Source of the DNA: an uncultured Clostridia bacterium | GTDB lineage: Bacteria; Bacillota; Clostridia; Oscillospirales; Acutalibacteraceae | NCBI GenBank assembly: GCA_945982035.1 | Contig: CAMFRO010000003.1 | Location: forward strand, 1 to 45,088 | Length of the DNA stretch: 45,088 nucleotides | Direction of reading: 5' to 3' | Part shown: positions 53 through 43,025 of the stretch, in pieces | How the letters are laid out: each line of letters opens with the position of its first letter | Numbering within the stretch: the stretch's first letter is position 1 | The notes under the pieces: model-generated | Seen by the model: the letters and a program-made list of their open reading frames with translations, nothing else | Database searches by the model: none | Told to the model about the DNA's origin: nothing | Program-made: the position numbers and the translations under genes

Positions 53-331
53 TTAGGCAGTGAAGAAAAATCTTAACCTGCCAAAAATGCAGAATTAAAG
101 CGACTTTTGAACTTTTCGCTGTCGCCTTGCGTCAGCAAGGCTTCCATCTCAAAACCCAAAATTCATCTTTACTTCAAGCATTTTTGGTCTGCGAGTTTAA
201 ATTGTGCTAATTTGTTCTTAATCAAGGCACAAAAATGCAGGAATACTTTCGTATTCCGAGGCTTTTTAACGCAGAGTAAGGGCAAATCAGCGCAATTTAA
301 ACCACGGTTAGGATTTCTCTTCACTGCCTAA
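53..331 (+). repeat. Structured non-coding element, copy A (long inverted-repeat closing stem, inner stem and core hairpin) in the aspS leader
   Basis: Ends ttaggcagtgaagaaaaatcttaacc (53-78) and ggttaggatttctcttcactgcctaa (306-331) are near-perfect inverted repeats; inner stem 195-215/282-302; core hairpin ggaatac-tttc-gtattcc 240-257; homologous to 9202-9478. Confidence 0.8.
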
Positions 332-9170: not shown

Positions 9171-9200
9171 AAAAAAGGACTGTTTCACAGTCCTTTTTTT
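9171..9200 (+). terminator. Intrinsic terminator of the GPH symporter gene
   Basis: aaaaaaggactg-tttca-cagtcctttttt. Confidence 0.88.
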
Positions 9201-9201
9201 G

Positions 9202-9478
9202 TTAAGCAAGCGAAATAAATCCGAACAAGCCTAAAAGGGTTTGATTTCGGCATATTTTCGCTTTTCGTCATTGTAAGGCACCAGCCTAACTGCTTCCTCA
9301 AAACAAAAATCTGCTCAAAATCAATTCCGTTTTAGGTCGCAGATTTTTTATGAAACGGATTTTTCGTTAGGCAAGGCACAAAACGCAGTTAATCCTTTCG
9401 GATTAACGAGTATTTTAACACAGCATAGCGGAAAATCCGTTCATAAAAAACTTATTCGGATTTATCTCGCTTGCTTAA
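9202..9478 (+). repeat. Structured non-coding element, copy B (same family as 53-331)
   Basis: Closing inverted repeat 9202-9229/9451-9478; inner stem 9344-9366/9429-9450; core hairpin gttaatcc-tttc-ggattaac 9388-9407. Confidence 0.8.
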
Positions 9479-9558
9479 GTTGGCAGTAGCCGAAATAATA
9501 TGCCTAAAATGCAAAATGATGGCATCTTTGCACATTTTTTGTTTTGACATACTTAATT

Positions 9559-37175: not shown

Positions 37176-37204
37176 TTGACACGAGGTTTTCTTCGTGATA
37201 TAAT
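37176..37204 (+). promoter_or_regulatory. Sigma-A promoter TTGACA-N17-TATAAT upstream of the rplJL leader
   Basis: ttgaca cgaggttttcttcgtga tataat. Confidence 0.85.
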
Positions 37205-37210
37205 ACACAC

Positions 37211-37336
37211 GCTGTTCAACCAAAGACAGTAGGTGCCGTTATCGGCGTAAGTTTTACCGCCTACCGAGGAATGAGCATTATGTAATTTATTTGTATGTAA
37301 TGTTGTGCATTCTCGGTTCTCGGGAATGCACTTTTT
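37211..37336 (+). promoter_or_regulatory. L10 leader (ribosomal protein autoregulatory leader) with attenuator hairpin
   Basis: aaccaaagacagtaggtgccg...taccgcctaccgaggaatgagca, then gtgcattc/gaatgcac-ttttt at 37305-37336. Confidence 0.82.
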
Positions 37337-37398
37337 GTTTTGGATAACAGCTATCAAGTCCGTTATTTAAGCGGCAAATAATAATGGAGGTAAGCTAA

Positions 37399-38426: not shown

Positions 38427-38459
38427 TAAGAGGCTGTTTTTACAGTCTCTTATTTTTTT
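38427..38459 (+). terminator. Intrinsic terminator of rplJL
   Basis: ataagaggctgtttttacagtctcttatttttttg. Confidence 0.8.
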
Positions 38460-38476
38460 GCGTCAAGACAGGGCAT

Positions 38477-38513
38477 AATTATTTTTGAATACTGCCCGTA
38501 TTCAAAAATAATT
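38477..38513. repeat. Perfect 16-bp inverted repeat (hairpin)
   Basis: aattatttttgaatac-tgccc-gtattcaaaaataatt. Confidence 0.85.
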
Positions 38514-38565
38514 TAACAAAGTATTGGCGGAAAAGATTGTGTCAAAACCATACCGTTACCCTGTG

Positions 38566-42791: not shown

Positions 42792-43025
42792 AATATTAAA
42801 AGGCTGTGATTAAGAGGAGTATTTTGCTTATTTCTTTTAGAGAGTCGTCGGTGGGTGCAAGACGACAGAATGGGCAGAAGAAGGTAGCTTATGAGCCGAT
42901 CGGGTGAAATATCAGTAGCTCGGTACGTATATCTGCGTTAAGGATTTGAGAGGCATTATTGTAAGATAATGCAATTTGAGTGGTACCACGGATTTTCCGC
43001 CTCATTGCCGAGGCGGATTTTTTTG
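42792..43025 (+). promoter_or_regulatory. T-box leader (valine specific)
   Basis: T-box sequence gagtggtaccacgg 42978-42991; terminator ccgcctc-attgcc-gaggcgg-attttttt; candidate specifier GTA 42884-42886. Confidence 0.88.

Follow-up and report, generated by a model that had tools for sequence, protein, structure and literature searches.

The window analysed here, a 45,088-nt stretch from an uncultured Clostridia bacterium (Oscillospirales, Acutalibacteraceae), carries two copies, A and B, of a non-coding element (Table 1). Copy B lies downstream of a terminator in a convergent intergenic region, and copy A immediately 5′ of a gene (351–2105) whose ribosome-binding site and ATG follow it directly. 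A first-pass annotation had recognized the two as homologous sequences of one architecture, non-coding and with no real ORF in either, and had placed them correctly except for their exact ends, which are TA dinucleotides. A 5′ fragment of a third subfamily (type C) abuts B, the two having the TA at 9476–9477 in common; in another species a copy of a different subfamily (L032 1590–1871) adjoins the same type C end, likewise sharing the TA, and given these adjacencies a preference for insertion beside another copy is possible. Elsewhere in the window, a T-box leader (42797–43007) and a ribosomal protein L10 leader (37202–37346) score above the Rfam gathering thresholds.

Table 1. Elements, parts of elements and adjoining features in the window
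Feature	Position	Strand	Basis or remark
Copy A, complete, different subfamily from B	54–330	+	Right-arm model, 97.2 bits
Terminator-like hairpin of upstream gene, just 5′ of B	9171–9199	.	
Copy B, complete, left TA to right TA, 275 bp	9203–9477	+	Comparison with about 70 copies and empty site of sister copy
B left terminal inverted repeat, TA-AGCAAGCGAAATAAATCCGAACAAG, inner conserved TCCGAAC	9203–9229	+	
B left arm	9229–9336	+	Reverse strand matches right-arm model (9234–9329 minus, 33 bits)
B right arm: long stem, internal loops, tip hairpin	9343–9450	+	Right-arm model, 135.2 bits
Conserved tip of B right arm: AAGGCACAAAACGCAG, hairpin GTTAATCC-TTTC-GGATTAAC, CGAGTATTTTAACACAG	9373–9424	+	Most conserved part in comparisons between genera
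B right terminal inverted repeat (CTTATTCGGATTTATCTCGCTTGCTTA)	9451–9477	+	
5′ fragment of type C copy, abutting B	9476–9552	+	Complete type C copies in L108, L110
Right-arm fragment of type C copy	38432–38554	+	Right-arm model, 33.8 bits

Architecture of the element

In A and B alike, a closing stem is built from both ends (28 bp in B and 26 bp in A, the lengths described at first pass, with two mismatches in each, 93 % and 92 % paired respectively) and is joined by two arms; the nested stems of the earlier description are thus present, within an overall fold that is Y-shaped. The TTTC tip hairpin and the conserved blocks AAGGCACAAAA.GCAG and CGAG..TTTTAAC were also recovered. Folding energies from RNAfold are −100.4 kcal/mol in B (z −11.4) and −111.3 kcal/mol in A (z −11.2), and for either copy 0 of 200 shuffles fold equally well. 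The right-arm model also hits the left arm, on the opposite strand, so the element consists of two related arms set head to head.

Tabulation covered about 115 copies, of which 100 were used for end statistics. The paired ends are TA...TA in 74 of these 100, with lengths mostly of 274–283 bp and terminal inverted repeats that are on average 90 % identical over 24 nt (74 copies); the other 26 do not have a clean TA at both ends, and the G272-type and some other subfamilies have none at one or both ends. The terminal profile reads TA[A/G]G, a variable stretch and then A-TCCGAAC-nn-G, and beyond TA[A/G]G and TCCGAAC the terminal repeats of different subfamilies have little in common. Mean pairwise column identity is highest in the right-tip loops (0.78) and lowest in the outer closing stem (0.44).

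Dispersal and insertion sites

The first-pass annotation had counted two members and proposed a covariance-model search of the order, which did find further homologues: with a right-arm model built from 19 copies, the source genome alone holds at least seven good copies, and there are matches in at least 66 of 295 genomes and at least 36 of 148 genera, these being lower bounds as no more than 12 candidates were scored in each genome. Among the genera sampled from this order of gut Clostridia the family occurs in roughly one in four, often beside ribosome-binding sites. DNA search of the source genome gave two further complete copies 94–95 % identical to B, together with several fragments, and A-type copies were found in the same way; several source-genome copies lie at contig ends, as repeats are expected to break assemblies. 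Within G272, a near-complete genome of three contigs that was examined in full, there are two subfamilies, one of five copies (93–100 % mutually identical) and one of ten. In public records, the core pattern was matched by MAGs of uncultured Eubacterium and Clostridia; where a title names the source, it is the ruminant gut. A phage or plasmid origin was rejected, with zero matches in the phage, plasmid and viral collections searched. Rfam 15 gave no match to A and B in the window at gathering score and no credible match to five copies at E≤1, in keeping with the earlier failure to assign a known RNA family, and we found no previous description of the family in Clostridia in the open-access papers searched.

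Three local arrangements were seen in other genomes. Many copies in G300 (L178–L184) lie within a common larger repeat (gcagactgcgaaa...gcaggaggggcgcaaaacagtc), which seems to have spread as one unit. Two copies in G032 (L031 1487–1866), about 263 bp apart beside a tRNA-like sequence, are apparently a tandem duplication including part of the tRNA region. On contig C32 of G338 (L268, about 1500–1570), a deletion derivative of about 73 bp retains both terminal repeats (TTAAGCAAGTG...CGCTTGCTTAA).

The element is mobile DNA. In G338, a sister species, a B-type copy 100 % identical to B interrupts a coding gene, three orthologues of which align gap-free across the junction when a single TA is kept, so that this insertion, the one clean case, made a 2-bp TA duplication; another site (G000:C110) is empty in many congeners. 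Moreover, two copies that lie at non-orthologous sites in G338 match B at 100 % identity, whereas the host gene neighbouring B is only 79 % identical between the two genomes, which demonstrates recent spread. Both genomes may be metagenome assemblies, and binning error is a caveat to this comparison, but the sequences flanking the G338 copy differ from those of congeners only to an ordinary extent. For B itself, the orthologous site in congeners has diverged too far to be aligned.

Both orientations of the element occur. By a rough ORF rule (n=90), 33 copies run in the same direction as both neighbouring genes and 17 in the opposite direction, while 20 lie between divergent and 20 between convergent genes. 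A Shine–Dalgarno-like motif follows within 13 nt of the right end in 32 of 74 copies and of the left end in seven of 74, against a TA-site background of 4.6 %; seven of the 32 and one of the seven are G300 copies with a common larger repeated flank, and the skew remains without them (25 right versus 6 left). With TAA or TAG at its ends, an element that inserts into a stop codon's TA restores a stop, and this regeneration, together with operon spacing (a stop codon followed by AGGAG), accounts for many sites but not for the orientation skew. The position of many copies, including A, immediately 5′ of such a motif and an ATG could also be read as that of a cis-regulatory leader of the downstream genes. 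We regard this as very improbable, considering that the downstream genes are unrelated, that convergent and divergent placements occur, that orthologous sites are empty and that insertion at a stop-codon TA before a Shine–Dalgarno motif accounts for the position.

Stem covariation and strand symmetry

The compensatory stem changes first seen between A and B are real when more copies are compared. In an alignment of 30 copies with 61 consensus pairs, 44 of the 61 pairs have double-sided changes, and 92.9 % of paired cells are paired, versus 73.4 % in shuffles and 36–48 % with partners slid. The earlier conclusion from such divergence with kept pairing, namely selection on an RNA fold, is not supported, in view of the TA-duplicating mobility of the element and the lack of any strand preference among its wobble-type mispairs. 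Among pairs predicted on both strands, mispairs are G-T in 34 cases and A-C in 37, and in the terminal repeats, taken by geometry alone, 45 and 47, whereas tRNAs of the carrier genome G272, used as a control, gave 26 G-T versus 3 A-C; in addition, the minus strand folds slightly better than the plus strand. G-U seemed to outnumber A-C strongly in the arms, an artefact of folding the plus strand only that disappears when pairs predicted on both strands are used. Because a fold selected in one RNA strand should favour G-U, the equality of G-T and A-C argues that pairing is kept at the DNA level, on both strands.

It is nevertheless formally conceivable that the Y fold works as RNA and that the family is a structured non-coding RNA whose stems co-vary under selection for structure. 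The depth of the fold (z about −11), the extent of double-sided change, the conserved unpaired tips and the orientation bias beside Shine–Dalgarno-like motifs are all consistent with such an RNA; however, mispairs that are balanced where tRNAs are strongly skewed, a minus strand that folds slightly better, the presence of copies in each of the four arrangements with adjoining genes, a precise insertion that duplicated the TA and the lack of an Rfam match make it quite improbable. Template switching between arms reportedly gives rise to hairpins with compensatory changes and maintains them (PMC8794818), and maintenance of a DNA palindrome, through end recognition or through such switching between arms, explains the symmetric mispairs as well as, or better than, selection on an RNA fold. 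Strong stem covariation need not, then, imply a functional RNA, and the strand-symmetry test used here (G-T versus A-C) helps to tell DNA palindromes from functional RNAs.

Mobilization and relation to known systems

Taken together, the analyses lead us to propose, with a probability of about 0.78, that A and B belong to a large family of small, MITE-like mobile DNA elements that are non-autonomous and whose palindromic pairing is kept at the DNA level. The copies are short and dispersed, carry no coding sequence, have terminal inverted repeats and are associated with TA duplication and empty sites. On this reading an element inserts at a TA, which it duplicates; it has imperfect terminal inverted repeats (TA[A/G]G tip and inner TCCGAAC) and, inside them, two palindromic arms that are set head to head and have conserved tips. 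An enzyme acting in trans, which may recognize the ends and perhaps the arm tips, probably moves it, the cutting or copying presumably being done by a transposase or recombinase; the palindromes may persist as DNA through the function of ends and foldback, or through template-switch homogenization of the arms, rather than through selection on one RNA strand. A parent insertion sequence with the same ends, however, was not found, so the usual route of MITE origin is unproven. Matching insertion-sequence ends are no strict requirement, and ERIC and others have been called MITEs without one (PMC2229807).

The search for the mobilizing enzyme covered several families. TA duplication and inverted ends suggest an IS630/Tc1-mariner or similar DDE enzyme. 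None of 20 genomes had a DDE_3 (IS630) match above the cut-off, nor did any tested carrier, and DDE_Tnp_1 was found in none of 15 carriers. The rve domain occurs in seven of the 15, in genes that we take to be IS3-like and that have no ends matching the element, and Y1_Tnp does not track carriage, being missing from several near-complete carriers. With no consistent presence in carriers, IS630 (DDE_3), DDE_Tnp_1, rve and Y1/RAYT were rejected as universal movers. A pattern search of six genomes for an insertion sequence or autonomous copy with the same ends returned only element ends and remnants, and self-comparison of G272 revealed no multi-copy insertion sequence. A screen of G272 for basic proteins yielded as candidates only tyrosine recombinases, HNH proteins, a methylase and one RAYT, although the screen is heuristic and leaves room for other transposase types. 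The G272 RAYT-type (Y1) gene (L368 631–1173, corresponding to C2:1380631–1381173) contains palindromic GTAG-type repeats inside its own frame, and an example of a 24-member repeat family in the same genome includes sequence similar to them (CGTAGGGGCTGACGACC...); this family is likely to be the REP substrate of the RAYT gene.

These results bear on two further proposals. The elements could be relic MITEs derived from an IS630/Tc1-mariner element, as has been suggested for RUP and IS630-Spn1, considering that TA duplication, established at the G338 gene, and inverted repeats typify that superfamily; this is unlikely, given that DDE_3 has no match in any tested carrier, including near-complete genomes with near-identical copies, and that no insertion sequence with these ends was found. 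Alternatively, a folded single DNA strand might be the mobile substrate, recognized by its hairpins as in IS200/IS605, REP/RAYT and integron cassettes, with ends that drift while structure stays. Stem sequences that are unrelated although pairing and length are constant, the conserved unpaired tips, the absence of both tested DDE transposase families from the carriers examined, and the RAYT-like gene and tyrosine recombinases of G272 would fit such a substrate, yet we consider it rather unlikely: a 2-bp TA duplication with inverted ends is unexpected for Y1 enzymes, the RAYT gene of G272 seemingly has its own REP-like substrate, Y1_Tnp is not tied to carriage, and mispairs show no strand asymmetry.

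Some features sit uneasily with the MITE-like interpretation itself. Terminal repeats alike only in TA[A/G]G and TCCGAAC are unusual for MITEs of one transposase, the arm tips are conserved across genera beyond the needs of a passive deletion derivative, no partner enzyme was detected, and a clean TA at both ends is missing from a quarter or so of the copies. We entertain, as a tentative and somewhat doubtful variant, that Y-shaped foldback DNA and the arm tips, more than terminal sequence, are acted on by an unrecognized and probably single-copy host enzyme. If true, recognition of the foldback would leave the terminal repeats free to diverge across the order while structure and TA targeting persist.

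Finally, small TA-flanked elements are familiar from other bacteria, as ERIC, Correia and RUP, most of them without a proven mover (PMC2229807; reviewed in PMC10969869). ERIC/IRU of enterobacteria resembles the Clostridia family as a small, imperfect, intergenic palindrome with TA termini, target duplication and no identified transposase, but is a single long hairpin of 127 bp with a 7-bp terminal repeat (PMC2229807), whereas the family here has about 277 bp, a terminal repeat of 22–28 bp and two arms with conserved tips. Correia/NEMIS of Neisseria is alike in its terminal repeats of about 24 bp, its TA ends and its frequent position next to genes, and unlike in size, in sequence and in having no Y fold (PMC2229807). 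RUP of Streptococcus pneumoniae is likewise short, non-autonomous and TA-targeted, but its ends match IS630-Spn1 (PMC2229807), a partner whose equivalent was not found for the Clostridia family. CIR repeats of Caulobacter share a two-armed predicted fold, their arms, however, being joined by a linker with no closing stem from the two ends (PMC2229807). REP/BIME sequences with RAYT are also palindromic units, of which the Clostridia family has an inverted pair, but REPs are 20–40 bp long with a GTAG or CGTC tag (PMC3733652) where the family has TA duplication and a closing stem; the differing length and ends, and the absence of Y1_Tnp from several carriers, place it outside that group. Absent from Rfam, the family offers a concrete system for asking how TA-targeting repeats spread without obvious transposases, and it is set apart from the known TA-flanked elements by its size, its two-armed fold with conserved tips, its strongly divergent terminal repeats and its host range.
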